From Chloroflexota bacterium (GTDB lineage Bacteria > Chloroflexota > UBA11872), in NCBI GenBank assembly GCA_022821645.1, contig JAJEDE010000012.1:62001-126000 (forward strand): 64,000 bases of DNA. The letters are read 5' to 3'. This document shows, piece by piece, positions 426 to 45,983 of this stretch; within the stretch, counting starts at the first letter, position 1; every line of letters begins with the position of its first letter. Below the pieces are notes generated by a model, which had not been told where the DNA came from, made no database searches, and saw nothing but the letters and a program-made list of their open reading frames with translations. The translations under genes were made by a program, and so were the position numbers.

Positions 426-621
426 GCGTTCACGCTAGCAGGTCTGGCGGGTTTACTCGGGACGTTGGGGACACGAGCCCGATCATGCGCGAACGCGCAA
501 CGCTCGTGGAGTGCGCGATGTCCCGGCGAGCGCATCAGTGAGCAGTCCTCGTGCTCTCGATCGGCATCATCGAGCTATGGCCCAAGACAGGCCGCCACAG
601 ACGCTGTTTGCGCTGAGACGT

Positions 622-650
622 TTGTCAGCGACGAGCGGTCAAGGTAAGGT
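622..650 (+). promoter_or_regulatory. Predicted sigma70-type promoter of the first solute-binding protein
   Basis: TTGTCA at 622-627 and TAAGGT at 645-650 are separated by 17 bases and lie about 40 bases upstream of the start codon of the solute-binding lipoprotein. The rest of the roughly 250-base gap after the tRNA gene shows nothing else I recognise. This is a consensus match by eye only. Confidence 0.4.
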
Positions 651-692
651 GTTTCGTTATGGAATAGTCTTAAGATGAAGGGCGTGGGCAAG

Positions 693-2279
693 ATGTCACG
701 AACGATGACGCGTCGCCGTCTGCTTGCCGGATCCGTGGGTGCCTTTGGGGCCACCGTACTGGCGGCCTGTGGCGAAACCCAGGTCGTTGAGGTGGAGAAG
801 ATCGTTACCCAGGAAGTGATCAAGGAAGTTCCGGTCGAGAAGATCGTGACGCAGACGCAGATCAAGGAAGTCCAGGTCGAGAAGATCGTGACGCAGACGC
901 AAATCAAGGAAGTCCAGGTGGACCGGGTCGTAACCCAGGTCGTCGAGAAGGTCGTTGAGGCGCCACCAGCGGCCCGCACGGTGAAGTTTAATTTTGAGAC
1001 TGACCATACGTCCGGTCCTCGAGGCAAGTCGACGCAGTGGGCGATTGATCGCTACAACCAGATCAAGCCGAACACGATCGTCAAGTTCATTGCGCAACCG
1101 GACCAGTTCACTGAGAAAATCAATATTCAGGCGGTGGCCGGCACTCTTTCCGAAATCAGTCTGCTCAGCGACAGGGTGTTCCAGCAGTGGGTTGACGCCG
1201 GAACGTGGCTGCAGATCAACGATCTCCTGGCCAAGAATCCTGATTTCACGCCCGCCGAGTACCACTTCTCAGGCGAGGTGTATACGGACAATAAGGAGCC
1301 GCCCGGCCCGCTGCCCTACGACGACACGATGCGCGGACCGCAATACGGGATGCCCTATCAGGGCGCTGGAATCGCGGCATTCATCTACAACGTCGATCTC
1401 CTGGATGCCGCAGGTGTTCCGGCGCCCACGGATGGCTGGTCCTACGACGACATGCTCGAGGGCGCCATGCAGGTCCGTGATCAGGAGACGGGCGTCTGGG
1501 GACTCAACTCCGGGATCCTTGGCATGCAGCACCAGTGTTGGGGTTTTAACGGGCTCCAGAAGTACATCGTGGGCCCGGAGGGACACCTGGTCCTGGGCAA
1601 CTTCCAAGGCGCCGGGAGAGAGTCGCTCCAGCGAGCCTATGACTACATCCACACCTACGATGTGCAGTTCAGATCGGAGTTGCGCCAGGAGATTGGCGGC
1701 GAATACGGCAACCCGTTCAATGCGGGGTTGCAAGGCTTCGACCACGGACGGGGCCGCAGCACGGGCTTCAACCTGACCCGGATTGGGGATCGGTTCCGCT
1801 GGGCGCAGGCCCCGAAACCGCGTGGGCCGCACCCAACGTCAACGGGCGACAACGAGTACGTCGATCAGCCGCATATCGTGGCCTCCACGGCCACGCTTAC
1901 AGGCACCGAAGAGCAGGTGGTTGATTTCGCGATCTTCATGGCAGGTCCTGAGGTCCAGGGTCGCAACGGCATTGACCGAGGCTTTTATCCTTGTCGGCGC
2001 GGCGTCCAGAACAATCCCGCCGCCGTGGCGCCGCCGCCGGAACGCATGGAGGAGTTGTATCTGATTTACGAGAAGTGCCTGATGCGGCCTGGCGGCATCT
2101 ACGTACCCGGTTCTCCCTCAGGGCGCGGCGAAGTCGAGGGCATGTGGGTCCGGCCCGTTCAGAAGCTGTTTGCTGGCGACCTTTCGGTCGATGAGACGGT
2201 TGAGATCGCGGAGAAGGACGTGAGCGATCAGATGGCCAAGTACAAGGCGGACCTGGATGCGGGTCGCGTGAGTCGATAG
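693..2279 (+). CDS. Extracellular solute-binding lipoprotein (ABC importer, family 1 type)
   Basis: This is a membrane-anchored substrate receptor for an ABC importer, probably of a sugar or oligosaccharide. The N-terminus has a twin-arginine-like stretch TRRRLLAG, a hydrophobic run and the lipobox LAAC. Next come about 65 residues of VEKIVTQ-type repeats, a spacer typical of Chloroflexota binding proteins, then the binding domain. I chose the ATG at 693 because AAGGG stands about 10 bases upstream; an ATG at 675 is also in frame. No permease lies next to it. It is followed on the same strand by two sialidase-like genes, which suggests a glycan-derived substrate. It resembles the binding proteins at 8882 and 17749. 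Confidence 0.85.
   Translation: MSRTMTRRRLLAGSVGAFGATVLAACGETQVVEVEKIVTQEVIKEVPVEKIVTQTQIKEVQVEKIVTQTQIKEVQVDRVVTQVVEKVVEAPPAARTVKFNFETDHTSGPRGKSTQWAIDRYNQIKPNTIVKFIAQPDQFTEKINIQAVAGTLSEISLLSDRVFQQWVDAGTWLQINDLLAKNPDFTPAEYHFSGEVYTDNKEPPGPLPYDDTMRGPQYGMPYQGAGIAAFIYNVDLLDAAGVPAPTDGWSYDDMLEGAMQVRDQETGVWGLNSGILGMQHQCWGFNGLQKYIVGPEGHLVLGNFQGAGRESLQRAYDYIHTYDVQFRSELRQEIGGEYGNPFNAGLQGFDHGRGRSTGFNLTRIGDRFRWAQAPKPRGPHPTSTGDNEYVDQPHIVASTATLTGTEEQVVDFAIFMAGPEVQGRNGIDRGFYPCRRGVQNNPAAVAPPPERMEELYLIYEKCLMRPGGIYVPGSPSGRGEVEGMWVRPVQKLFAGDLSVDETVEIAEKDVSDQMAKYKADLDAGRVSR
834..917 (+). repeat. Two tandem 42-bp units encoding the lipoprotein spacer
   Basis: Units 834-875 and 876-917 differ at only one base that I can see. 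Each encodes a 14-residue block of the form VEKIVTQTQIKEVQ. Flanking sequence on both sides is a more diverged version of the same unit. The near-identity suggests recent slippage or unequal-crossover growth of the spacer between the membrane anchor and the binding domain. Confidence 0.85.
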
Positions 2280-2289
2280 CCGGCAGCAC

Positions 2290-2339
2290 GCCGTCGCTGG
2301 CCCCGGGTGATCGTTAGGATGCGCGGAGCCAGCGGCGGC
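2290..2339 (+). terminator. Possible weak hairpin after the solute-binding gene
   Basis: CCGTCGCTGGC at 2291-2301 and GCCAGCGGCGG at 2328-2338 pair with one mismatch across a loop of about 26 bases. There is no T-run. It could slow transcription between the binding protein and the sialidase-like gene, but the large loop makes it weak. Confidence 0.25.
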
Positions 2340-2419
2340 GGGTCGAGCGTTCGACAGTTGGCGCGACGGCTCGTGCGTATCCGCGGAATAGTCCTCTCCG
2401 CAAGAAAGTGTGATGCAGG

Positions 2420-3784
2420 ATGACCGCCCCATTCTTCGAGAACGTGGATGTGTTCTTTCCCGGCCAGGGCGACACGTTGACCCAAGCGCCGGCGTATCAC
2501 TGGGAGCGCAAAGCAGCGCCGGCGGAGGTTTCCGCCAAGGAAGGTCTGTCCGAGCAGACCGAACGCCCATCTGACGCTCTGCACACCTATGGCGTGACGG
2601 CCAACTTCTATAGCAGCACCCGTGATCCCAATTCGGTGCTCGTGGCGGTGATTGGGACGGACCGCGAAGAACGAAGAAAGCTGGCGGGCGCCAAGATCAC
2701 CATGGACTTCACGAACCTGCAATACCACGACTTCGATGGATTTGGGATCCATCTGCCCGGAATGATCGTCACGGATGCCGGGAGCGTGGTCGCCGTATGC
2801 CAACGGCGTCACGGGGGAATGGGTGACGGCGGCCACGAGAACGATGTCCTCATGTCGCGCAGCGAGGACGGCGGCAAGACGTGGTCGCGACAGCGGGTGA
2901 TCTATGCGGAGAAGGGTCAATACACCTTCCTCGGCGCCATTGTCGAGGACCGTATCTCAGGCACGCTCCTGGTTGTCGGTTGGAACATGCCGGCCGACGT
3001 TGTCGATGACCTTGGCTACTTCAGCACCTATGCCGAGCAGGGCGGCGGGTTCTGGGTCGTCCAGAGTGTCGATGATGGAGTGACATGGTCAGAGGCGCGG
3101 GATGTCGACCCGAGGCCGAGTCCCGATGGATGGACCGGCTGGCCGAATAACAGCGTGCACGGGATTCAGCTAAGCGCGGGGCCGCATTCCGGGCGGCTGG
3201 TGATTCCGGGATTCCTCTACAAGGAGGGCGAACCCGGGGAGGTGCCGGGCGTGCGCGGCGGGTTGCTGTACAGCGACGACCATGGCGAGACGTGGACGGT
3301 TGGCGCCGTGCTCCCCGAGGGCTCCGACGAGGTGTCGCTGGTGGAGACCGGGGGCGGCGAAATCTACGTCAGCTATCGGAGGAATACTTGCCGAAGGGAC
3401 GGACGCACGTTCGCCCGGAGCCGGGACGGCGGCACGAGCTTCTATGAACTGGGCGAGCATGGGGACCTGAGCGGCCGGCCCGTACACGTTGGACTGGCCC
3501 GGCATGGATCGGCTGCCAACAACCATCCGGAGGTGCTGCTCTTCTCGCATCCCGTTGGGGTCAATCACCTTATCCCCGGCGGGGCGGACATGATGATCTA
3601 CGTCAGCCAGGACGACGGACGTACTTGGCCCATGTCGAAACTCATCGACCGGAGACCGTGTCGGTACTCCGACCTAGCCGTAACCGCAGACGGCACCGTG
3701 CTATGCATTTACACGGTAGGCGAGATGCGAGACAGCGAAAAACTCACGGTCGCTCGCTTTAACCAGGAGTGGTTGTTTGCCTAG
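2420..3784 (+). CDS. BNR/sialidase-family beta-propeller protein, copy 1
   Basis: This 454-residue protein carries several Asp boxes (S-x-D-x-G-x-T-W): SRSEDGGKTWS, SVDDGVTWS, SDDHGETW and SQDDGRTW. These mark the blades of a sialidase-type propeller. A conserved FDGFGIHLPGMIVTDAGSVVAVCQRR stretch would carry the active-site arginine region. No signal peptide is visible, so it may act inside the cell on imported oligosaccharide. Copy 2 at 4370 is closely similar along its length, and a small lipoprotein gene lies between them. The family includes sialidases and other exo-glycosidases or lyases, so the exact substrate is not fixed by sequence. Confidence 0.8.
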   Translation: MTAPFFENVDVFFPGQGDTLTQAPAYHWERKAAPAEVSAKEGLSEQTERPSDALHTYGVTANFYSSTRDPNSVLVAVIGTDREERRKLAGAKITMDFTNLQYHDFDGFGIHLPGMIVTDAGSVVAVCQRRHGGMGDGGHENDVLMSRSEDGGKTWSRQRVIYAEKGQYTFLGAIVEDRISGTLLVVGWNMPADVVDDLGYFSTYAEQGGGFWVVQSVDDGVTWSEARDVDPRPSPDGWTGWPNNSVHGIQLSAGPHSGRLVIPGFLYKEGEPGEVPGVRGGLLYSDDHGETWTVGAVLPEGSDEVSLVETGGGEIYVSYRRNTCRRDGRTFARSRDGGTSFYELGEHGDLSGRPVHVGLARHGSAANNHPEVLLFSHPVGVNHLIPGGADMMIYVSQDDGRTWPMSKLIDRRPCRYSDLAVTADGTVLCIYTVGEMRDSEKLTVARFNQEWLFA

Positions 3785-3948
3785 CCAGTTTGAGAGGCGC
3801 GCCGGCACGTATGTCGCGAAGCTGGATGCCTCGCGGCACGCGTCGCTTACGGCCTGCACATGCACTCAAGGGTCGCCGTCACTTACGCGAGTCCGATGCC
3901 CCTATTATCAACCCGACGGCCGAAGGTGGCGTGGTGGAGGGTGACTTT

Positions 3949-4194
3949 ATGCGCTCGTCGAAGAAGTTGACCAAGTACGTTACGGGCGCGGCACTTGCGT
4001 TGTTGATGGCCATGGTGGTTGTGGGTTGCGAAGCAAGCGACGAGTTCGAGTACATGAAGAGTGAGCGGCAGATGATGCGGCACGGTGACTATGGCCCTGG
4101 AATGAGCGATGCCGATCGACAGAAGCTCCAGGAGAGCTACGCGAGTAAGCAGCTGTCTAAGGTGACGCCGACCAGCGGTGCCGCGGCGCCATAG
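3949..4194 (+). CDS. Small lipoprotein of unknown function
   Basis: This 81-residue protein has a charged N-terminus (RSSKKLTK), a hydrophobic core and a lipobox ending VVGC, so it is predicted to be a short membrane-anchored lipoprotein with about 55 mature residues. The start at 3949 is supported by GGAGGG a few bases upstream; the frame stays open further left but without signal-like sequence. The mature part is rich in Met, Asp and Lys (EYMKSERQMMRHGDYGPG) and ends in an Ala/Pro tail. It sits between two sialidase-family genes. I recognise no family. Confidence 0.65.
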   Translation: MRSSKKLTKYVTGAALALLMAMVVVGCEASDEFEYMKSERQMMRHGDYGPGMSDADRQKLQESYASKQLSKVTPTSGAAAP

Positions 4195-4369
4195 CGTTGG
4201 GCACGGTGGCGAAGCGCTGTGGATACACCGGACGACCTGCCCCGGGTGCTACTCGCGCCCCTAGGGCACTTGTCTATTGCACGCCGCTGTGACCCCGGTC
4301 GCCGGGCGCGACAGCAAGAGCCAGCCGCGTCAGGCTACGTACTTCCTGATCTGATGAAGGAGCCGAACC

Positions 4370-5653
4370 ATGCCTGCTGAGCAATTTGAGACGGTGGACG
4401 TACTTCTGCCGGGAGTTGGCGAGACGCTCAATCAGGACGTGGCCGCCCATTGGCAGGCGAGCGAAAGCCTGACAGCGCAGATCTATCTGGGGCAGCTCGG
4501 ACAGGAGGAGGTCATGCTCCACCTGTCGGGTCTGACTGCCGATCAGCGGCGCCTCCTGACCGAACGACCAGTAATCGTCGATGCGGGGTGGGCGCATCAC
4601 GTGATTGACGGATATGGGGTCCGCATACCTGGAATCCTCGTCACACCTCGCGGCACGGTCATTGCGGTCTGCCAGCAGCGGGTGGGCTCCCTGGCCGATG
4701 GCGGCCACGCGACGAACGTCCTGGTGACGCGTAGCGAGGACGGCGGACGGACCTGGTCGCGGCAGGAGGTGCTGTTCGCGGAAGCGGGAATCAATACCTT
4801 CCTTGGACCGATCCTCGCGGACCGCTACACGAACGATGTGTTCGTGACCTTCTGGAAGCTGCCGCAGGCGGAGGGCAACGGCCTGGGCTACTTCGCTCCC
4901 TATGCCGAAATGGGCGGCGGGTTCTGGATGGTGCGAAGTTCGGACGAGGGCCAGAGTTGGTCCGAGCCATACTTCGTCCGCCCGGCGCCGAACGCGGATG
5001 GGTGGGTTGCCTGGGTGAACAACTCGTCGCGCGGGGTGCAGCTGGCGCGAGGCCCGCGGGCCGGGCGGCACGTGATCGCGGCATTTCTCTTCAAGGCCGG
5101 CGAGGAAGGGCAGGCCCCCGGCGTTCGCGGCGGCCTGGTGTACAGCGACGACCACGGCGAGACCTGGCAGGCGGGCGCTGTTCTACCCGCGGGTTCGGAC
5201 GAACTCATCCTGGAAGAGACGGAAGACGGCGGAATCTACGTGAATTACCGGAAGAATCGCCCCTACTACAACGGACTGCGCTGGTTTGCGCGCAGTTCGG
5301 ACAGCGGGGAGAGCTTCGACGCCCACGGGCAGCACGAGGAGCAGATCACGCCGTGCTGCCACGCCGGGCTTGTGCGTTACTCGAGCACGGACGATGGCGG
5401 CGAGAACGTGCTGCTGTTCAGCAATCCGAGAGGCCCCAGCCGCCGCAATCTGACGGTTCGGCTCAGCCGCGACGACGGCAGGACATGGCCGGTATCGCGT
5501 ACGGTAACCAGCGACCTGGCCGGCTACTCCGACCTTGCGGTTCTGCCCGACAAGACGATTCTGTGTATCTGGGAAGGCGGTACGCAGCGTTACCACGAGA
5601 AGATAAGCGCGGCGCGCTTCAACCTGGACTGGGTGCTGGCAGGCGACGGCTGA
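4370..5653 (+). CDS. BNR/sialidase-family beta-propeller protein, copy 2
   Basis: This 427-residue paralogue of the protein at 2420 has the same architecture: N-terminal segment with a LPGVGETLNQ motif, a central GYGVRIPGILVTPRGTV block, and Asp boxes TRSEDGGRTWS, SSDEGQSWS, SDDHGETW and SRDDGRTW. The start has a clear AAGGAG site 10 bases upstream. Like its partner it has no signal peptide. Tandem copies that have diverged moderately suggest an old duplication followed by specialisation, for example for different linkages. It converges on the minus-strand glycosidase gene that ends at 5682. Confidence 0.8.
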   Translation: MPAEQFETVDVLLPGVGETLNQDVAAHWQASESLTAQIYLGQLGQEEVMLHLSGLTADQRRLLTERPVIVDAGWAHHVIDGYGVRIPGILVTPRGTVIAVCQQRVGSLADGGHATNVLVTRSEDGGRTWSRQEVLFAEAGINTFLGPILADRYTNDVFVTFWKLPQAEGNGLGYFAPYAEMGGGFWMVRSSDEGQSWSEPYFVRPAPNADGWVAWVNNSSRGVQLARGPRAGRHVIAAFLFKAGEEGQAPGVRGGLVYSDDHGETWQAGAVLPAGSDELILEETEDGGIYVNYRKNRPYYNGLRWFARSSDSGESFDAHGQHEEQITPCCHAGLVRYSSTDDGGENVLLFSNPRGPSRRNLTVRLSRDDGRTWPVSRTVTSDLAGYSDLAVLPDKTILCIWEGGTQRYHEKISAARFNLDWVLAGDG

Positions 5654-36186: not shown

Positions 36187-36300
36187 ACGATCGGCAATGA
36201 AGCAACTATGGACGATTGTCCCGTGTGTGGGGCGGTGATTTAGTTGGAGCCACGCCCTCTCGAATAGGTGGCGGGTGGTGGTTTTACCGGTGCTTGACTG

Positions 36301-36345
36301 TTAGACCATGAGTTCGCCGCCGGTGATGTCGAGCGCGGCGCCGTT
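36301..36345 (-). pseudogene. Isolated 3' end of an SDR gene (14 codons plus stop)
   Basis: On the minus strand this stretch reads GAALDITGGELMV then a stop, the same C-terminus as the intact SDR gene at 45941. About 40 of the first 43 bases match 45941-45983 in direct orientation. Nothing upstream of it looks like the rest of an SDR. The remainder of the 36187-36494 gap (about 300 bases) contains no other feature I can support. Confidence 0.8.
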
Positions 36346-36494: not shown

Positions 36495-39400
36495 TTGCGG
36501 GCGGTCAGTCCGCTCTTAGTGGCGCTGGCGCTGGTGCTGATTGCAACTCTGCAACCCGTGGCGCGGGCGCAGGAGCCCAGCCCGGGCCCGGCGCTGCTGC
36601 CGACGGCGGCGGCCGAACCTCCGAAGCCGGAGGATCGTTTCGTCACGGTGAGCAGCGGCAACTTTCACACGTGCGCCCTGCGAGCGAACGGCGAAGTTCT
36701 GTGTTGGGGCGCCTGGCCGCCGGGCGAGACGGCCGAATTCGGCCAGGTTGACTTCGGCCAGGCGACGCCGCCGGACGGCGAGCGCTTCGCGTCCATCAGC
36801 AGCGGCGGCTTTCACACGTGCGGCCTGCGGGACGATGGAAGCGTCGTGTGCTGGGGCGCCGGTCTGGACGACCAGTCCGAAGGCCTGGGCCAGGTGGGCT
36901 TCGGCCAGACGTCCCCTCCGGTTGGCGAGGTCTTCACCGCCATCAGCAGCGGCGGCGGGCATACGTGCGGGCTGCGCGAGGATGGATCGGTGGCCTGCTG
37001 GGGGGACGACGAATCCGGCCAGACCTCGCCGCCGGACGGCGAGACATTCAGCGCCATCACCAGCGGCGCCAATCACTCCTGCGGTCTTCGAGAAGACGGC
37101 GTGGTCGTGTGCTGGGGACCGGAGCCGGGGCCCGGTCCGTTCGGCGGCTGGGAAGCTCCACCGGAAGCCGCGTTTGCGTCGATCGACGGGGCCCACGGTT
37201 ATACGTGCGGCGTGCCGCTGGAAGGTCCGCCCTTCTGCTGGGGGAGCTATTCGGAGATCCCCAACCTTGCACGCTACCCGCCGCCGGACCTCTGGCTTAT
37301 GGCCGTCAGCGGTGGCGGTGGCCATGCCTGTGGGCTCAACAAGGACGGGACCCCGATCTGCTGGGGCGACCTGGCGGACAGTCCGCCGCCGGGGCAGCGC
37401 TTCGCGTCGCTCAGTAGCGGGGTCGGGCATACCTGCGGGCTCCGCGCCGACGACGGCACCGTGGCCTGCTGGGGCGACGATTCGTATGGGCAGGCGTCTC
37501 CGCCCGAGGGCGCGCGGTACCTGGGTTCCGAGCCCATCCCGCCCGATCCCTACGACCCGGGGGCACCGCTGACCGCGCTCAGCAGCGGTGGTAATCATCT
37601 CTGCGGCATCACCAGCGAAGGCCTCGCCTGGTGCGTTGGCAGCGACTCATTTGGTCAGGCATCGCCGCCGCCTGGGATGAAGTTCGCAGCCATCAGTGCC
37701 GGCTGGCTCCACACCTGCGGGATTCGCCTGGATGGCGTGGCGGTCTGCTGGGGTGACGATGAGGACGGCGAATCTTCGCCGCCGCCTGGGGAGCGGTTCG
37801 TGGCGATCAGTAGCGGCACCGCCCGTACCTGCGCTCTGCGCGAGGACGGGACGCCCGTCTGCTGGGGTGGCGAGAGCGCTGAAGAGACGGCCGCCGTGGA
37901 GGCCGAGCAGTTCACCGCCGTTAGTACCGGCTGGTCACACGCCTGCGCGCTGCGGGCCGACGGTTCAGCCGTCTGCTGGGGTACCGACTGGGATGGCCGG
38001 GCCACGCCGCCGGAAGGACAGAAGTTCAAGGCCATCAGCAGTAGCTGGCAGCACACCTGCGGAGTGCGCGAGGACGGAACCGCGGTGTGCTGGGGCCGCG
38101 ACAGGGACAGGCAGGCCTCGCCGCCTGATTACGAGCGCCTTGTGGACATCAGCACAAACCTCTACCACACCTGCGCGCTGCGAGATGACGGTACGTCTGT
38201 GTGTTGGGGCGCCGCTCGCCCTGGGGTGGACGACGGTCAGGCTTCTCCGTTGCCCGGCGACCAGTTCGTGGACTTGAGTAGCGGAGTCGAGTTCACCTGC
38301 GGCCTGCGCGCGGATGGCACGTACGGGTGCTGGCGCTTCGGCCCCGCGAAGCTCGGCTTCGACCTTGAGAAAGTTGGGCGCCAGGGATTCAGGGCGGTCA
38401 GCGATCGTGCGCTGACTGCGGTTAGCAGCGGTAACCGACATACCTGCGCGATCGATGCGGACGGCGCGCTGCATTGCTGGGGTTTGAACGACTACGGGCA
38501 GGCCTCTCCACCGGCGGACGGGAGCTTCACCGCGGTCAGCAGCGGAGAACGGCACACCTGCGCCCTTCGCGACAACGGCGAGGCGGTCTGTTGGGGCGAC
38601 GCGGCGGATGGCCGGACCGAGCCGCCGGCCGACGAGCGGTTTGTGGCGATCAGCAGCGGCTGGGCCCATACCTGTGCGCTGCGCGAGGACGGTTCAGCCG
38701 CGTGTTGGGGTAAGGATCATGATGGACAGGCCTCGCCGCCCGCGGATGAGCGCTTCAGTGCCATCAGCAGCGGGCCAACGCACGCCTGCGCGCTACGCCA
38801 GGACGGGTCGGTGGTGTGCTGGGGGCAGGATGACGACGGCCAGGCCTCGCCGCCGGAGGGCTCGCAGTTCTCCGCCATTAGCAGCGGCTCGGATTACACC
38901 TGTGCCCTCCACGAGGACGGCAGCCCGTTTTGCTGGGGCGACTCCGATAACGAGGCGTCGACGCCGCCATATGTCGACCGCTTCGTCTCGATCAGCAGTG
39001 GTTCCGATCACGCGTGCGGACTACGGGCCGACGGCACGCCGGTCTGCTGGGGCGAACGGAATGCGGTCGCTCCGCCGGGCGAGCACTTCGACGCCATCAG
39101 CATCGGCGCCGTGCATACCTGCGCGCTGCGTACAGACGGACGCCCCGTCTGCTGGGGCAGTGGCTTCGTCACGCCGACCGAGTCGGCCGTGCGTTCACAG
39201 TTCGAGACGGTCAGTGTTCAGAGCTTCGTCGCTATCAGCAGCGGCTACGGGCACGTCTGCGCGCTGCGCGAGGACGGGTCGGCTGTCTGCTGGGGCTCGA
39301 GCGGCGCCGGCCAGACCGCGGCGCCGCAGGGCGAGACGTTCTCCTCGCTGACCAGCGGCGGCTCCCACACGTGCGGGTTGCGGCGGGACGGCGTGGCGGT

Positions 39401-42400
39401 CTGCTGGGGATACAACGAGCAGGGCCAGGCGTCGCCGCCGGAGGACGAGCGGTTTACGACGCTCACCAGCGATAGCTATCACACCTGTGGGCTACGTAGC
39501 GACGGAACCGCGATCTGCTGGGGGCGTGACGACAACGGTGAGGCGTCACCGCCCGAGGGCGTGCAGTTCATGGCAGTCAGCGCCGGCGAGCGCCACACCT
39601 GCGGCGTGCGAACCGACGGCGTGGCGGTCTGCTGGGGGGACGATGAGCACGGCAAGTCGACGCCAACGCAGGCCGAGCGATTCGTTGCCGTGAGCGGCGG
39701 CGAGGAGCACACCTGCGCGCTGCGCGCCGACGGGACGCCGGTCTGCTGGGGCATGGCCGGGAGCGTGACGTCACCGCCGCACGGCGTGGCGTTTACCGCA
39801 CTCAGCAGCGGCCCACAGCACACGTGTGGATTGCTGGCGGACGGGACGCCGGTCTGCTGGGGCTCAAACGCCGGCGGTTATGAAACCCCTGGCGGGCGAG
39901 CCGTAGCGCCGCACGGCGAGAAACTCAGCGCGGTGAGCAGTGGCGGTGACTTTACGTGCGGCCTTCGCACGGACGGCACGCCGGTTTGCTGGGGCGGGCG
40001 CTTCGAGACCGGAGCACCGCGCTATCCGCCTATCGCCGGCGGCCCGTTTGTTGCGATGAGCAGTGGGGAGTTGCATACCTGTGCGCTGCGCGAAGACGGC
40101 TCGCCGCTCTGTTGGGGCGACGACACCCACGGTCAGGCGTCGCCGCCAGCGGACGAGCGCTTCGTGGCCGTGAGCAGCGGCGAGCACCACACCTGCGCGC
40201 TGCGCGAGGACGGTGGTGCGGTGTGCTGGGGATCGAATCGCGATGGGCGGTCAACGCCGCCGGAGGGTGAACGATTCGACTACCTCAGCAGCGGCTCAAG
40301 CCACAGTTGCGCGTTGAGGTTAAATGGGTCCGCGGCGTGCTGGGGGCGCGACGACCAGGGGCAGGCCTCGCCGCCAGAAGCCGAGACGTTCGTGGCGATC
40401 GGCAGCGGCGGCGAGCACACCTGCGGCCTGCGCGATGACGGGTCCGCCTTCTGCTGGGGCTCGGAAGACCGATCCAGCAGCCGGGACAAGCCCTGGCCGC
40501 CTGAGGACGAGCGCTTTGTCGCCCTCAGTGTTGGGCCGAACCATACCTGTGCGCTGCGAGCGGATGGCACGTTTTGGTGCAGCACGGACTTCAATCAGTG
40601 GTCCGGGGAATACGAGCACGAGCGGTTCGTTTCCATAAGCAGCGCCCGCGAGCGTCTTTGCGGCCTTCGGGACGACGGTTCGGTCGCCTGCCTTGGCGAC
40701 TTTCGAATCTACCTTCCGGTCAACCAGCCGTTCGTGTCGCTTAGCACTGGGGCCCGGCACACCTGTGGGCTGCGCGAGGACGGCGCCATCCTGTGCTGGG
40801 GGCAGAACAACCGGGGCCAGGCTTCGCTACAGGACCGGTACCCAACGTCATTGCGTGGCGAGCGTTTCACGGCCGTGACCGCCGGCAGCCGCGTCGCCTG
40901 CGCGCTTCGCCAGGACGGGACGCCGGTCTGCTGGGTGGCGCCCGATTCCAGGTGGTCGTCGCCACGCGACCTTCCGGAGACTCCAGACGAGCGGCTGAAG
41001 ACAGTCAGCGCCGGGTCCGGGTACGTCTGTGGGCTTCGCGACGATGGCACCCCCGTGTGCTGGGGAGAGGACTGGAACGGCCGAGCCGTGCCGCCGGAAG
41101 GCGAGGTGTTCGCGGCCATTAGTGCCGGCTCGGGGCACACCTGCGCGCTGCGCCCAGACGGCACCCCGGTGTGCTGGGGCGGCAACGATGATGGGTCGGG
41201 TCGGCACGTCGGCGGGGCGTCGCCGCCGGCTGGTGAGCGCTTCTCGACCATCAGCGTGGGTGCGTTCCACACCTGCGCCCTGCGGGAGGACGGCACCACG
41301 GTGTGCTGGGGTAGCAACGAGGACGGGCGCGGCAACCCCGTCGGCCAAGCCTCACCTCCCAGCGGCGAGCGTTTCACGACCCTCAGCAGCGCATCGCTTC
41401 ACACGTGTGCCCTGCGCGAGGACGGCACGGCCGTCTGCTGGGGTGAGAACCATGACGGCCGGTCGTCGCCGCCGGCGAACGACTCGTTCGTCGCGATCGA
41501 CAGCGGCGCCGAACACACTTGCGGTGTCCGCGCCGACGGTTCCGCCGTCTGCTGGGGACAGGACTGGAGTGGCGAGTCTTCGGCGCCGGCGGGCGAGACT
41601 TTCGCAGCCATCGGCAGTGGGCAGGACTTCAGCTGCGCCCTGCGCCAGGACGGAACCGCGACGTGCTGGGGCGAGGGGTTCCCCCGCCCGCCTGAGGTGA
41701 CACCCCCGTACACACCGCCGGCGCCGCCGCTGCCCAGCCCGCTGCCAGCGTTCGTGGCCGTCAGTTGCGGAGCGTTCCACACCTGTGCGCTCAGCCTGGA
41801 TGGTCAGGCAATTTGCTGGGGTGGATGGTCCGTCAATCGGCCGGTGTGGCCCCCGGAAGGTGAGCGGTTTGTCGCGCTCAGCAGCGGGTGGAGCCACACC
41901 TGCGGGCTACGCGAAGACGGAACGGCCGTGTGCTGGGGTGTAGGCGTCGCCGTCAGCGAGCCGCCCCCTGTCGGCGAAACGTTCTCCGCGCTGAGCAGCG
42001 GCTCAAGCCACACCTGCGGCTTGCGTAGCGATGGGACGGCGGTCTGCTGGGGCTTCGACGATGACGGTCGAACCTGGCCTCCGGCCGGCGAACGGTTCAC
42101 GATGCTCAGCAGTGGTGGCGGTCACACCTGTGGCCTGCGCGAGGATGGGACGGCGGTCTGCTGGGGACGCGACGACGAAGGCCAGGCCTCGCCGCCCGCC
42201 GACGAGCGGTTTACGGCAATTGCCAGCGGCGGCGATCACACCTGCGGGTTGCGTGCGGATGGGACCGTCCGCTGCTGGGGCGACAAGTCAGCCGCTCACG
42301 CGACGCCGCCGGTGGGCGAGACTTTCGTGGCAATCAGCAGCGACGACTACCGCACCTGTGGGCTCCGTAGCGATGGGACCGTGGAGTGCTGGGGATCCTT

Positions 42401-42545
42401 CCGACCCGGCGAATCCACATCGCCCGACGACGTGCGGGTCACCACCATCAGCATGGGTCGAGCACACATCTGTGGCCTGCGCGCGGACGGAACCGTGGCT
42501 TGCTGGGGGTCCGATGACGAGGGCCAGGTGTGGCCGTCGCGATGA
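36495..42545 (+). CDS. Giant secreted RCC1-repeat protein (49 repeats)
   Basis: This 2016-residue protein has a signal-like N-terminus (SPLLVALALVLIATLQPVARA), a Pro/Ala linker and then RCC1-type repeats to the end. I count 49 repeats of about 38-45 residues with the core HTCGLREDGTAVCWG. Nearly every repeat has two Cys nine residues apart, as expected for one disulfide per blade outside the cell. Longer linkers follow repeats 7, 14, 21 and 42, with shorter irregular ones after 28 and 35, so the chain parses as seven seven-bladed propellers. No anchor or catalytic domain is seen. The start codon appears to be TTG at 36495; an upstream ATA or ATT start cannot be excluded. The stop overlaps the next gene. 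Confidence 0.88.
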   Translation: MRAVSPLLVALALVLIATLQPVARAQEPSPGPALLPTAAAEPPKPEDRFVTVSSGNFHTCALRANGEVLCWGAWPPGETAEFGQVDFGQATPPDGERFASISSGGFHTCGLRDDGSVVCWGAGLDDQSEGLGQVGFGQTSPPVGEVFTAISSGGGHTCGLREDGSVACWGDDESGQTSPPDGETFSAITSGANHSCGLREDGVVVCWGPEPGPGPFGGWEAPPEAAFASIDGAHGYTCGVPLEGPPFCWGSYSEIPNLARYPPPDLWLMAVSGGGGHACGLNKDGTPICWGDLADSPPPGQRFASLSSGVGHTCGLRADDGTVACWGDDSYGQASPPEGARYLGSEPIPPDPYDPGAPLTALSSGGNHLCGITSEGLAWCVGSDSFGQASPPPGMKFAAISAGWLHTCGIRLDGVAVCWGDDEDGESSPPPGERFVAISSGTARTCALREDGTPVCWGGESAEETAAVEAEQFTAVSTGWSHACALRADGSAVCWGTDWDGRATPPEGQKFKAISSSWQHTCGVREDGTAVCWGRDRDRQASPPDYERLVDISTNLYHTCALRDDGTSVCWGAARPGVDDGQASPLPGDQFVDLSSGVEFTCGLRADGTYGCWRFGPAKLGFDLEKVGRQGFRAVSDRALTAVSSGNRHTCAIDADGALHCWGLNDYGQASPPADGSFTAVSSGERHTCALRDNGEAVCWGDAADGRTEPPADERFVAISSGWAHTCALREDGSAACWGKDHDGQASPPADERFSAISSGPTHACALRQDGSVVCWGQDDDGQASPPEGSQFSAISSGSDYTCALHEDGSPFCWGDSDNEASTPPYVDRFVSISSGSDHACGLRADGTPVCWGERNAVAPPGEHFDAISIGAVHTCALRTDGRPVCWGSGFVTPTESAVRSQFETVSVQSFVAISSGYGHVCALREDGSAVCWGSSGAGQTAAPQGETFSSLTSGGSHTCGLRRDGVAVCWGYNEQGQASPPEDERFTTLTSDSYHTCGLRSDGTAICWGRDDNGEASPPEGVQFMAVSAGERHTCGVRTDGVAVCWGDDEHGKSTPTQAERFVAVSGGEEHTCALRADGTPVCWGMAGSVTSPPHGVAFTALSSGPQHTCGLLADGTPVCWGSNAGGYETPGGRAVAPHGEKLSAVSSGGDFTCGLRTDGTPVCWGGRFETGAPRYPPIAGGPFVAMSSGELHTCALREDGSPLCWGDDTHGQASPPADERFVAVSSGEHHTCALREDGGAVCWGSNRDGRSTPPEGERFDYLSSGSSHSCALRLNGSAACWGRDDQGQASPPEAETFVAIGSGGEHTCGLRDDGSAFCWGSEDRSSSRDKPWPPEDERFVALSVGPNHTCALRADGTFWCSTDFNQWSGEYEHERFVSISSARERLCGLRDDGSVACLGDFRIYLPVNQPFVSLSTGARHTCGLREDGAILCWGQNNRGQASLQDRYPTSLRGERFTAVTAGSRVACALRQDGTPVCWVAPDSRWSSPRDLPETPDERLKTVSAGSGYVCGLRDDGTPVCWGEDWNGRAVPPEGEVFAAISAGSGHTCALRPDGTPVCWGGNDDGSGRHVGGASPPAGERFSTISVGAFHTCALREDGTTVCWGSNEDGRGNPVGQASPPSGERFTTLSSASLHTCALREDGTAVCWGENHDGRSSPPANDSFVAIDSGAEHTCGVRADGSAVCWGQDWSGESSAPAGETFAAIGSGQDFSCALRQDGTATCWGEGFPRPPEVTPPYTPPAPPLPSPLPAFVAVSCGAFHTCALSLDGQAICWGGWSVNRPVWPPEGERFVALSSGWSHTCGLREDGTAVCWGVGVAVSEPPPVGETFSALSSGSSHTCGLRSDGTAVCWGFDDDGRTWPPAGERFTMLSSGGGHTCGLREDGTAVCWGRDDEGQASPPADERFTAIASGGDHTCGLRADGTVRCWGDKSAAHATPPVGETFVAISSDDYRTCGLRSDGTVECWGSFRPGESTSPDDVRVTTISMGRAHICGLRADGTVACWGSDDEGQVWPSR

Positions 42546-45500
42546 GGCTGGTGAACGTGCTGATGGTCCTCCAGAGCGTCAGTTGCTCTGCCGCTCGTCG
42601 GGTGGGGCGGCGACTCCGGTCGGCTTGTTCGGCGCAAGCGATTCGGCTGACTCCAGGCCTTCGTCGATCGCGCGGCAGATCGAGGCCATTGCCCGGACAG
42701 CTGCGACCTCTCACCGCAAGACGTAGGTCCCGAGCCCTGGCGCCGCCGTTGCGCTTCGTCGCGCTGGCCGCCGTGCTGGTTGCGCTCGGTGTGAGCCTCA
42801 CGACCCGGCCGGCGCATGCGCACAGCCGCATTCCGCCGTGCGAGAGTTTCGGTCTCCGCGGCATTCACGTGATGAATGCCCGGAACTCGGTGCAGTGGAC
42901 GCCGGGTGGCTCCGAACTGCTATTTATCCACCACGACCAGCTCTACCAGGCGACGGCGGACGGGACACGCGTGCACGGCACGTTTGAGGTGCCGTACGAG
43001 GCCCACATCGAGTCGCGGTCGTATATCAAGGTCTACCTGTCCCACGCCGACGTCTCCCCTGACGGGACTCGCGTGGCGTACTCCGTCTGCTGGGACTCCT
43101 TTACGTTCTGGGACAGCCCGCCAAGGGAACCGCCGGACGAGGAGTCCCGGGCGGTCGACGCTCCGATCGGCACCGTGTTCTTCGAAGTCGCCGTCTGGGA
43201 TGCGACCACGGACGAGGTGGACTACCTGGCCGTTGGCAGCGTGCCCGTGTGGTCGCCCGACGGTAGCCGCATTGCGTTCTTGTCCGACTACAACTACGCC
43301 GACCCGCCGGACGGCCGACGGACACGCGTCGAGGCCGACCCGGGGCTCTTCAGCATGGCCGCGGACGGCTCCGACATCCAACGCCTGGCGCCGGCGGACC
43401 TTGGGGATGTCGGCCTTCCGCCCCGCTGGTCGCCGGATGGGCAACTCCTGGCCTTTGTGCGTGGCGTGGGTTCGGCGGAGCAGGCGGTGTACACGGTAGG
43501 CGCCGACGGCTCCAATCTCAGGCAGGTATCCGCCGCGGCCAGTCTTCCCTCCTGGTCCCCCGACGGCGCGCGGCTGGCGCTGGCGTTGCCCGACGGCGAC
43601 GAGGTGGCCCTGTACACCCTCGCGGCGGACGGCTCGGACCCGCGGCGGCTGACGACGATCGAGGGCTGGCACAGCCTGGGCTGGAACGAAGGCTCGTCCG
43701 AGGCGGAAGCGGCGACCGCCTGGATCGAGACCGTGGCCTGGTCGCCGGACGGATCGAAGATTCTCTATACGTGCGGATGGACGTCGGTCTGCGTGGTCGA
43801 CCTGGATGGAAATCCCGTCGGGTCATCGCCTGAGAACTTCGGGGAGCCACACGGACCGGTCTGGTCGCCCGACGGATCGCGAATCGCGATTGGCCTGGGC
43901 GCTGAGTTGGACCGCTATTCGCGCAGCGTGCCCGAGGTTCTCTACACGATGAGGCCCGATGGCTCCGACCTGCAGGTCCTTGTGACCCTGGGCGTCGGGC
44001 TGGTGGCCGAGAGCGTCAGAGAGGCCGACCTTGCAACGCGATACGCGGCCTGCACCGCCGGATACGTAGTCCCCGAACCCGGTGCGAATTCCGGCCTGGT
44101 GAGCGACTGCCAGACGTTGATGAATCTGCGGGATTGGCTGTACGGCGGCGTGACCACGAACTGGAACTCCGGGACGCCCATCGACGAGTGGGTGGGGCTG
44201 ACGATCGAGGGCTCGCCACGGCGAGTGACTGGACTGAGCGTCGGTAGCGGCAGATACGGCGATCCCGTAACCGCGGGCGTTATTCCGCCCGAACTCGCAA
44301 ACCTGACCAAGCTGCGGACGCTGGAACTCGCCGGTAATCAGATAGCGGGGAACATTCCGCCGGAGCTCGGTCAACTCCGCGAGTTGGAGACGCTGGACGT
44401 CGCCCACAATCAACTCTCGGGAAGGATTCCAGCAGAGTTGGGCGACTTGATCTCGCTGCGGAGCCTGAACCTGGCCGGCAATCGGCTCTACGGTGAGATT
44501 CCACCGGAAGTGGGCCGGCTCGCCAGCCTTGAACTCCTGGACCTTGCCGGGAACGATCTGCACGGCGAGATCCCAGCGGAACTGGGCAACCTTTCCAGCC
44601 TGCAGCGGCTCAACCTTCGGGAAAACGAGTTCGGCGGGAGGATTCCACCCGAACTGGGTCAACTTGCCAGCCTGGCGGTGCTGGACTTCGCCGAGAGCGG
44701 TGTCACGGGAAGCATTCCGCCCGAAATCGGCGATCTGGCCGGGCTGGAGACGCTGGACCTCTCCAACAATGAGCTGACGGGTGACATTCCGCCCGAACTC
44801 GGCGGGCTGCGAAACCTGAAGGGGTTGAATCTCAGCCAGAACCACCTGACGGGCGGCATTCCCTGGGAACTGGGCTGGCTGACCAAGCTCACGGAGTTGC
44901 AGTTCGGGGGCAACCAACTCACCGGACGAGTTCCGGTGGCCCTGGGGTCCATGTACCACCTGCGGTCGCTGGGGCTGTGGGGCAATCAACTCGAGGAGTG
45001 CCTGCCGTTCCACCTGAACCGACGTGAGCCGCCGTACATCAGCCCGCGCGAGTGGGCGACCTGCGAGGCCGGTTCGTATGCCTTCAACATTCGAGACGAC
45101 GCCTTACTGGGCGCCAGCGTGGGGCAGGTCTACATCCCCGGCCGGCTGGCGGACACGGTCAGCTACGTGATCGCGGGCGGCAACGAGGACGGGGTATTCG
45201 CCATCGACTCCAGCAGCGGCCGCATCAGCGTTGCAAGCGCACTGGATGCTTCCGCGGTCGATGCCTATTCGCTAACGGTCGCGGCGAGCGATGGAATCGG
45301 CGACCCGGTACGGGTGGAGATCAGGGTCAATCCAGCGCCGTCGCCGCCGACGTGTGCCAGTGGAATCGCCGTACCCAATCCGGAGGAGAATCCCGGGCTG
45401 GTGAACGACTGCCGGATCCTTCTTGAGGTCAAGGAGCTATTGGCAGGGCGCACGTGGCTGAATTGGAGCGCCGAGGCTCCGCTGGAGCAGTGGGAGGCTA

Positions 45501-45937
45501 TCGAGCTTGGCGGCACGCCGCGACGCGTCCTGGCGCTGGAGATCCGAGGGCCGCACGGCGGCGGACGCATTCCTCCCGAACTTGGAGATCTGACTGCCCT
45601 GCGGCGACTCGTGATCTCCGACAACCGCTCGTGGGGTCCCATCCCGAGCGAACTCGGCCAATTGAGCGAGTTGCGCGAACTCGATCTGTCGTACAACGCC
45701 TTCTCGGAAGCGATACCGCCGGAACTGGGTCGGCTTGCCAACCTGAGGACACTCAATCTGGCGGTCAATCGACTGGCCGGGCAGGTCCCGGCGGAACTCG
45801 CACAACTGGCAAATCTGCGCGAGTTGCAGCTCGAGCGGAACTACTACCTGGCGCAGTGCCTGCCGGCCGGCCTGGCCGTGCGAGCGCGGGATGGGGTCGC
45901 GTTGCCGGACTGGCCGACGTGTGAGGCGGACGGCTAG
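42542..45937 (+). CDS. Secreted WD40-like propeller/LRR/cadherin-like protein
   Basis: This protein has up to 1131 residues. A hydrophobic signal segment (FVALAAVLVALGVSLTT) sits near residue 70, so the true start may be the TTG at 42749 rather than the ATG at 42542 that overlaps the upstream stop (ATGA). Domains in order: seven PD40 blades with WSPDGSRIAF-type motifs (about residues 95-490); a Cys-flanked cap and about ten plant-type leucine-rich repeats (IPPELGNLSSLQRLNL) to about 820; a cadherin-like repeat (VFAIDSSSGRISV); then a second cap and four more LRRs ending in a CLP cap. Both LRR blocks share the same cap, so the block was duplicated internally. It is probably a surface binding or adhesion protein acting with the RCC1 giant. 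Confidence 0.85.
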   Translation: MRLVNVLMVLQSVSCSAARRVGRRLRSACSAQAIRLTPGLRRSRGRSRPLPGQLRPLTARRRSRALAPPLRFVALAAVLVALGVSLTTRPAHAHSRIPPCESFGLRGIHVMNARNSVQWTPGGSELLFIHHDQLYQATADGTRVHGTFEVPYEAHIESRSYIKVYLSHADVSPDGTRVAYSVCWDSFTFWDSPPREPPDEESRAVDAPIGTVFFEVAVWDATTDEVDYLAVGSVPVWSPDGSRIAFLSDYNYADPPDGRRTRVEADPGLFSMAADGSDIQRLAPADLGDVGLPPRWSPDGQLLAFVRGVGSAEQAVYTVGADGSNLRQVSAAASLPSWSPDGARLALALPDGDEVALYTLAADGSDPRRLTTIEGWHSLGWNEGSSEAEAATAWIETVAWSPDGSKILYTCGWTSVCVVDLDGNPVGSSPENFGEPHGPVWSPDGSRIAIGLGAELDRYSRSVPEVLYTMRPDGSDLQVLVTLGVGLVAESVREADLATRYAACTAGYVVPEPGANSGLVSDCQTLMNLRDWLYGGVTTNWNSGTPIDEWVGLTIEGSPRRVTGLSVGSGRYGDPVTAGVIPPELANLTKLRTLELAGNQIAGNIPPELGQLRELETLDVAHNQLSGRIPAELGDLISLRSLNLAGNRLYGEIPPEVGRLASLELLDLAGNDLHGEIPAELGNLSSLQRLNLRENEFGGRIPPELGQLASLAVLDFAESGVTGSIPPEIGDLAGLETLDLSNNELTGDIPPELGGLRNLKGLNLSQNHLTGGIPWELGWLTKLTELQFGGNQLTGRVPVALGSMYHLRSLGLWGNQLEECLPFHLNRREPPYISPREWATCEAGSYAFNIRDDALLGASVGQVYIPGRLADTVSYVIAGGNEDGVFAIDSSSGRISVASALDASAVDAYSLTVAASDGIGDPVRVEIRVNPAPSPPTCASGIAVPNPEENPGLVNDCRILLEVKELLAGRTWLNWSAEAPLEQWEAIELGGTPRRVLALEIRGPHGGGRIPPELGDLTALRRLVISDNRSWGPIPSELGQLSELRELDLSYNAFSEAIPPELGRLANLRTLNLAVNRLAGQVPAELAQLANLRELQLERNYYLAQCLPAGLAVRARDGVALPDWPTCEADG

Positions 45938-45940
45938 CGG

Positions 45941-45983
45941 TCAGACCATCAGTTCGCCGCCGGTGATGTCGAGGGCGGCGCCG
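45941..45983. repeat. Right copy of the direct repeat flanking the RCC1/LRR module
   Basis: These bases are the 3' end of the intact SDR gene. They match 36301-36343 in the same orientation with three to four differences. The two copies bracket a 9.6-kb segment that contains only the RCC1 and propeller/LRR genes. See the remnant at 36301. Confidence 0.75.

Follow-up and report, generated by a model that had tools for sequence, protein, structure and literature searches.

The window analysed here, 64,000 nucleotides of a Chloroflexota bacterium (GenBank assembly GCA_022821645.1, contig JAJEDE010000012.1, positions 62,001 to 126,000), contains at 36495-42545 on the forward strand an open reading frame (ORF) of 2016 amino acids (aa), with TTG as its listed, putative start codon, that encodes a long chain of RCC1 repeats. 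How is such a chain arranged, and what might it do? A core-motif pattern scan found exactly 49 repeats with a usual spacing of 38 aa between repeat starts, in agreement with the number and the coordinates given in an earlier, sequence-only reading. Our best explanation, which we hold with reasonable confidence, is a secreted string of seven propellers with seven binding faces. The architectural part, seven consecutive seven-bladed propellers of the BLIP-II/CR4 type on one secreted chain, we regard as very probable; the functional part, multivalent binding outside the cell, is put forward tentatively.

Repeat family and linker register

The Pfam scores place the chain in the RCC1/BLIP-II superfamily by its repeat sequence. 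RCC1_2 (PF13540) matched with E = 0 and 989.6 bits (cut-off 22) and WD40_RLD (PF25390) with E = 2.6e-197 and 655.8 bits (cut-off 150). At E <= 0.01 the Pfam matches were RCC1-type models alone (RCC1_2, WD40_RLD and RCC1), and a scan against NCBIfam matched zero models. Relatives by sequence in the PDB are CR4, BLIP-II, UVR8 and RCC1. Each blade would be formed by one repeat of about 38 aa, of the short three-stranded kind known from BLIP-II and CR4, and short conserved linkers would define the borders between successive rings.

The spacings following repeats 7, 14, 21, 28, 35 and 42 are 56, 49, 46, 41, 45 and 50 aa, with a mean of 47.8 at these six multiples of seven versus 39.2 at the remaining 42 spacings (permutation p = 5e-5 for longer spacings at this pre-stated phase). 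When periods 4-12 were compared in every phase, period 7 phase 0 ranked first among the 72 combinations with z = 4.2, the runner-up reaching 2.0 (max-statistic permutation p = 0.004). The sequence-only reading had placed the longest linkers after repeats 7, 14, 21 and 42 and irregular inserts after 28 and 35. The four linkers are indeed long, but a spacing of 49 is also seen after repeats 1 and 2, where the inserts lie inside the blade, behind CWG, and mark no boundaries. The spacing after repeat 28 is only 3 residues over normal. Spacings of 44 after repeats 27, 38 and 39 show as well that a long spacing does not always correspond to a ring boundary.

Over six orthologs, mean conservation was 0.880 for the linkers, 0.882 for the blade cores and 0.821 for the inner loops; the difference between linkers and inner loops gave p = 0.006 in a residue-level permutation, in which residues are not independent. 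Identity of single linkers between orthologs ranged from 0.97 (7/8 and 21/22) down to 0.72 (35/36).

Orthologs and related arrays

A scan of genome contigs returned 28 loci, seven of which (L015-L021) are near the chain in sequence and layout, five of them complete and two cut by contig ends. A repeat hidden Markov model (HMM) gave a count of 49 for all five complete near orthologs, a number divisible by seven as the sequence-only reading had expected of profile-based detection; the two cut ones show 47 and 26. Counting the window, all distinct complete same-genus orthologs (6/6) have 49 repeats. As six distinct proteins share this layout with divergent blades, we rejected an assembly artefact. 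Four complete orthologs share all their spacings, and so do the two cut ones over the parts that survive; L019 has three differences from the window chain. In the family search, matches occurred in 13 of 19 genomes, the own genome included, several loci being proteins already found.

Chains of the sister genus have 42 repeats in three cases (L059-L061) and 50 in one (L058). Groups 1-3 of the 42-repeat proteins best match groups 1-3 of the window chain at 54-61% identity, and their groups 4-6 have no clear counterpart in it. Divergence in L019 is greatest in groups 4-6, which have 61-65% identity versus 79-88% for the other groups. From these comparisons the first three predicted rings appear stable and the middle fluid, and the last one appears to be kept in L019, but nothing in the sister genus clearly corresponds to it. 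Most differences between relatives amount to whole rings, which suggests a modular protein with several binding sites.

A wider census covered 121 open frames with five or more strong repeats. After removal of 41 touching locus ends, 72 distinct complete frames remained and formed 45 clusters at 50% identity. In 34 of these 45 the modal repeat count was divisible by seven, with counts of 7, 14, 21 or 28 in the arrays other than the long chains, and seven-repeat arrays also exist in short proteins (L038, a 334-aa frame). Against a chance of 1/7 this corresponds to a binomial P = 4e-20, a figure that is overstated because clusters share ancestry, because the repeat HMM was built from the same loci and because 20 stretches were hand-picked among the matches listed. 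Related arrays thus tend to multiples of seven; the rule is strong, not absolute. Together, the count, the linker phase, the orthologs and these related arrays support the earlier proposal of seven complete propellers on one secreted chain.

The own genome holds four arrays of five or more repeats, with 49, 14, 7 and 7 repeats, as well as decayed short RCC1 fragments in short frames (L013 at C14:14727 and L014 at C28:431989). Elsewhere, an acidimicrobial locus (L024, Acidimicrobiia) has two arrays of nearly uniform repeats, 15 and 22 in number and thus each 7n+1, behind an SLH-like stretch recognised by eye. Reinekea marinisedimentorum (L028) has six complete successive ORFs of 14 RCC1 repeats with about 50 aa per repeat, and one further RCC1 ORF cut by the locus end. 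In L023, the array at 619-4605 carries one in-frame stop codon and, near its end, an insert with an HExxH motif (by eye). Fusions of seven-repeat arrays with other domains also occur, namely with GSDH in L012 and with a trypsin-like domain in L110.

Predicted fold and closure of the rings

An AlphaFold2 model of repeats 18-28, based on 51 alignment rows, reached a predicted local distance difference test (pLDDT) value of 84.6 and a predicted template modelling score (pTM) of 0.67. This 11-repeat segment is off-phase, as it joins four group 3 repeats to the complete group 4. Runs of at least three residues with pLDDT < 50 were found at three sites, namely model residues 139-146 (linker 21/22), 374-380 (repeat 27 insert) and 418-431 (linker 28/29). 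Foldseek returned BLIP-II first (3qi0_A, TMt 0.82, root-mean-square deviation 1.9 Å over 263 columns), followed by CR4/ACR4 ectodomains (7a0j, up to 0.78), UVR8, RCC1, RPGR and HERC2; we take all of these solved relatives to be closed seven-bladed rings. One whole BLIP-II ring was matched, so that a closed ring fold was seen for this segment only. The kinship to BLIP-II and CR4 is thus apparent in sequence and in predicted fold, and every ring would probably close in the register of the linkers.

Several observations weigh against regular, in-phase rings. The match to BLIP-II does not fix which seven repeats close, and ring closure among repeats 18-24 would also be compatible with it. A model of repeats 1-28 from nine alignment rows (pLDDT 55.4, pTM 0.37) was unusable, with mostly three strands per repeat visible and rings not resolved. 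Repeats at the same ring position are 56.3% similar versus 55.6% elsewhere (p = 0.09), so that similarity has no significant 7-periodicity, and period 9 scores slightly above period 7. In the sister-genus chain L059, period 7 phase 0 ranks first without reaching significance (p = 0.12). The counts of 11 of the 45 clusters are not divisible by seven (L024, L098, two L023 pieces, L094, L055, L097, two L093 frames, L105 and L042), leaving remainders of 1 in five clusters, 2 in three, 6 in two and 3 in one; these counts are automatic, and L055, scored as 16, has 15 repeats by eye, one repeat being split (same protein as L062). Read by their linkers, L058 (50 = 7+8+7x5), L098 (29 = 8+7+7+7) and L055/L062 (15 = 8+7) each contain an eight-repeat group; L058 falls in the window chain's own cluster, with modal count 49. 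Finally, the 28 repeats of L022 are uniformly spaced, at 37, and linkers are absent.

Such eight-repeat groups in relatives would be at home among rings of mixed size (8+6, for example, or off-phase groups), the total of 49 then being partly coincidence. The short boundary after repeat 28 and the 11-repeat model, which is compatible with off-phase closure, also fit this arrangement, as does a WD40 protein of 15 blades for which PMC9218822, in the part available, gives a 7+8 model. We nevertheless consider it quite improbable, because all six multiples of seven have a spacing of at least 41 (permutation p = 0.0007 alone), 49 is kept in six distinct orthologs, and average conservation is 0.88 for linkers and blade cores alike, above the 0.82 of the inner loops.

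An open, continuous solenoid or superhelix of blades, for which the linker-free L022 and the 28-repeat model without resolved rings could be cited, appears barely credible. It was one of the outcomes that the sequence-only reading had set against its own proposal, and it was not seen, as the 11-repeat model fits the BLIP-II ring over its 263 columns at 1.9 Å. The best-ranked solved relatives are closed seven-bladed rings, and the clustering of family counts at 7n is not something a solenoid needs.

Count and linkers, rather than structure, thus point to seven repeats per ring. Repeat similarity lacks a significant 7-periodicity, and the ring register would be carried by the linkers and not by the similarity of the repeats, whose median identity is 58% over 24 core residues. 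An origin by duplication of propellers is unsupported for the same reason, same-position repeats not being significantly more alike.

Cysteines, probable secretion and putative binding loops

The chain has 99 cysteines, 98 of them in 49 pairs and one odd residue at aa 1758 in repeat 43. A pair is present in every repeat (49/49), with nine residues in between in 48 and ten in repeat 7, so that the earlier description of a Cys pair nine apart in nearly every blade holds; a Trp stands behind the pair in 46 of 49 repeats. Across six orthologs, 291 of 291 pairs are retained. Because of this conservation and the CR4 precedent, each blade probably has one disulfide across its C-x9-C hairpin.

By eye, a hydrophobic N-terminal stretch followed by an [AV]-x-A site was seen in the window chain and in seven orthologs. 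The chain is therefore probably secreted through a putative Sec signal peptide, and this probable secretion argues against Ran exchange activity. The ratio of nonsynonymous to synonymous substitution rates (dN/dS) over aa 30-1900 was 0.17-0.22 in five comparisons. In each of these comparisons propeller 3 had the lowest value among the seven (0.11-0.14), with propeller 7 included up to aa 1923 only.

Positions 8-9 of the repeat, behind SSG, are the most variable between repeats, and positions -4 (0.69), 2 (0.71) and 8-9 (0.72-0.73) are among those with the lowest retention between orthologs. By likeness to BLIP-II, a binding face would be expected at the loop of positions 8-9. One could take this further and see in the chain a secreted BLIP-II-like inhibitor directed at a single class of enzymes, beta-lactamases or proteases, in seven copies for dose, given that BLIP-II comes first by fold and ranks with the nearest solved relatives by sequence, that the chain is probably secreted and that its most diverse positions lie in the loop of the BLIP-II aromatics. 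The aligned BLIP-II blades, however, are mostly aromatic in this loop, whereas the chain has an aromatic residue at position 9 in 7 of 49 repeats and at position 8 in 6 of 49. Its loop residues vary from ring to ring, and neither the aromatic pattern nor the single ring with an aromatic binding loop is found; an inhibitor of this kind is improbable. By comparison, the seven-propeller string would most likely bind its ligands, proteins or glycans, multivalently through seven faces outside the cell, be it within the matrix of the sponge or at the surface of other cells.

Neighbouring genes and habitat

The coordinates of the chain, its parts and its flanks are collected in Table 1. The ORF that follows, with WD40/TolB-like, leucine-rich repeat (LRR) and cadherin domains, is a possible partner of the chain. 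Their order is preserved in orthologs, and within the genus this neighbour occurs in 8 of 8 genomes with an orthologous chain and in 0 of 5 without, the latter including G008, which carries a 15-repeat relative only. Within the genus, the co-inherited neighbour might act together with the chain. Against such a partnership, the neighbour was detected at E <= 1e-150 in 0 of 6 sister-genus genomes, four of which have a chain relative; the link is therefore at genus level only.

Putative PCMT and fucosidase genes lie upstream and a putative SDR gene downstream; a HigA-type antitoxin lies immediately upstream of the chain. Beyond the window, a second, upstream copy of the SDR 3' end was found only in L018 among 11 loci checked, and the 44-bp copy in the window is possibly the trace of an insertion or replacement. 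In L115 and L116, of the same genus and without the pair, an RCC1 array is absent between HigA and SDR; the place is taken by an MgtE transporter in L115 (3423-4850, Pfam) and by a similar-looking MgtE-type frame in L116 (about 3559-5088, by eye). The chain and its TolB/LRR neighbour look like an exchangeable two-gene cassette. A scan for promoters and terminators gave 0 promoter-like sites (0.9 expected) and four terminator-like sites (4.5 expected).

Table 1. Positions in the window of the RCC1 chain, its predicted parts and flanking features
Feature	Position	Strand	Remarks
RCC1 49-repeat ORF	36495..42545	+	2016 aa, TTG start, stop codon within range
Putative Sec signal peptide	36495..36569	+	aa 1-25, cleavage after A-x-A (V-x-A in some orthologs); by eye
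Predicted propeller 1, repeats 1-7	36639..37568	+	aa 49-358 including linker 7/8
Linker 7/8	37473..37568	+	counted from repeat-core end; 97% ortholog identity
Predicted propeller 2, repeats 8-14	37569..38411	+	aa 359-639 including linker 14/15
Linker 14/15	38337..38411	+	
Predicted propeller 3, repeats 15-21	38412..39224	+	aa 640-910 including linker 21/22
Linker 21/22	39159..39224	+	97% ortholog identity; stretch with pLDDT < 50 in 11-repeat model
Predicted propeller 4, repeats 22-28	39225..40046	+	aa 911-1184 including linker 28/29
Linker 28/29	39996..40046	+	shortest of six
Predicted propeller 5, repeats 29-35	40047..40865	+	aa 1185-1457 including linker 35/36
Linker 35/36	40803..40865	+	
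Predicted propeller 6, repeats 36-42	40866..41750	+	aa 1458-1752 including linker 42/43
Linker 42/43	41673..41750	+	Pro-rich
Predicted propeller 7, repeats 43-49	41751..42542	+	aa 1753-2016
WD40/TolB-like + LRR + cadherin ORF	42530..45937	+	overlaps chain stop; true start probably downstream
44-bp copy (93%) of SDR 3' end (45940-45983)	36300..36343	+	flanks gene pair

Three of the ortholog metagenome-assembled genomes (MAGs) have jk18x names, the naming of Ircinia sponge MAGs in the accessible text of PMC9531527, and COS and RHO names fit, by abbreviation only, sponge species in the portion of PMC8163846 available. Because of this match of names the family is likely sponge-associated, the window's own genome standing outside this statement. 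The chain might then be a eukaryotic-like protein that mimics extracellular proteins of the host, as part of a sponge-symbiont set of repeat proteins. The neighbour's LRR and cadherin domains belong to classes that PMC9531527, as far as available, describes as enriched in Ircinia MAGs, and the jk18x names point the same way. RCC1, on the other hand, is mentioned 0 times in the main text of that paper, other bacteria have RCC1 arrays too, and the neighbour was not found beside sister-genus chains at the threshold used; we regard such mimicry as unlikely. The seven-propeller string may also be cast as a multi-ligand string of sponge symbionts, in which seven disulfide-locked propellers would have differing loops and length would evolve mostly by whole propellers through the conserved linkers and less by single blades, a picture that we entertain seriously without yet expecting it to hold in full.

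Comparison with known systems

HERC2 is an intracellular protein with three RCC1 propellers in total and other domains in between. It resembles the chain in having several RCC1 propellers per chain (RCC1-like domain 2 in 7q40, the third such domain in 3kci). BLIP-II (PDB 1jtd, 3qhy, 3qi0) is likewise a secreted bacterial seven-bladed RCC1-like ring with short blades; unlike the chain, it is a single ring with an aromatic binding loop, and its aligned stretches have no C-x9-C pairs.

The ectodomain of plant CRINKLY4/ACR4 (PDB 7a0j, 7a0k) has seven RCC1-like repeats of about 39 aa with three modelled strands per blade, according to the part of PMC4617170 available. The likeness extends to the extracellular location, a C-x~10-CWG motif and one presumed disulfide per blade (PMC4617170, same part); the chain has a Cys pair with CW per repeat at x9 instead of x~10, and its probable extracellular location would follow from the putative signal peptide seen by eye. 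In CRINKLY4, one propeller is followed by a TNFR-like domain, a membrane helix and a kinase, whereas the chain is bacterial, has 49 repeats and matched only RCC1-type models.

A literature search over titles and abstract beginnings, with subscription papers mostly outside its coverage, gave no RCC1 chain of such length. The closest length precedent is a fungal 47-blade NACHT protein, CRL31138.1 of Penicillium camemberti, which has the most blades in the propeller survey PMC9218822, to judge from the sections available. In long propeller arrays the number of rings is often unclear, and for CRL31138.1, whose blades have a median identity of 81%, assembly and ring number are given as unresolved in those sections of PMC9218822. 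The blades of the chain are more divergent (median 58%), and six distinct proteins share its number of 49. With divergent blades, a count that recurs in several MAGs and linkers at the likely ring boundaries, the question of how register is kept becomes testable, and the 42- and 50-repeat proteins of the sister genus and the eight-repeat groups are natural test cases.

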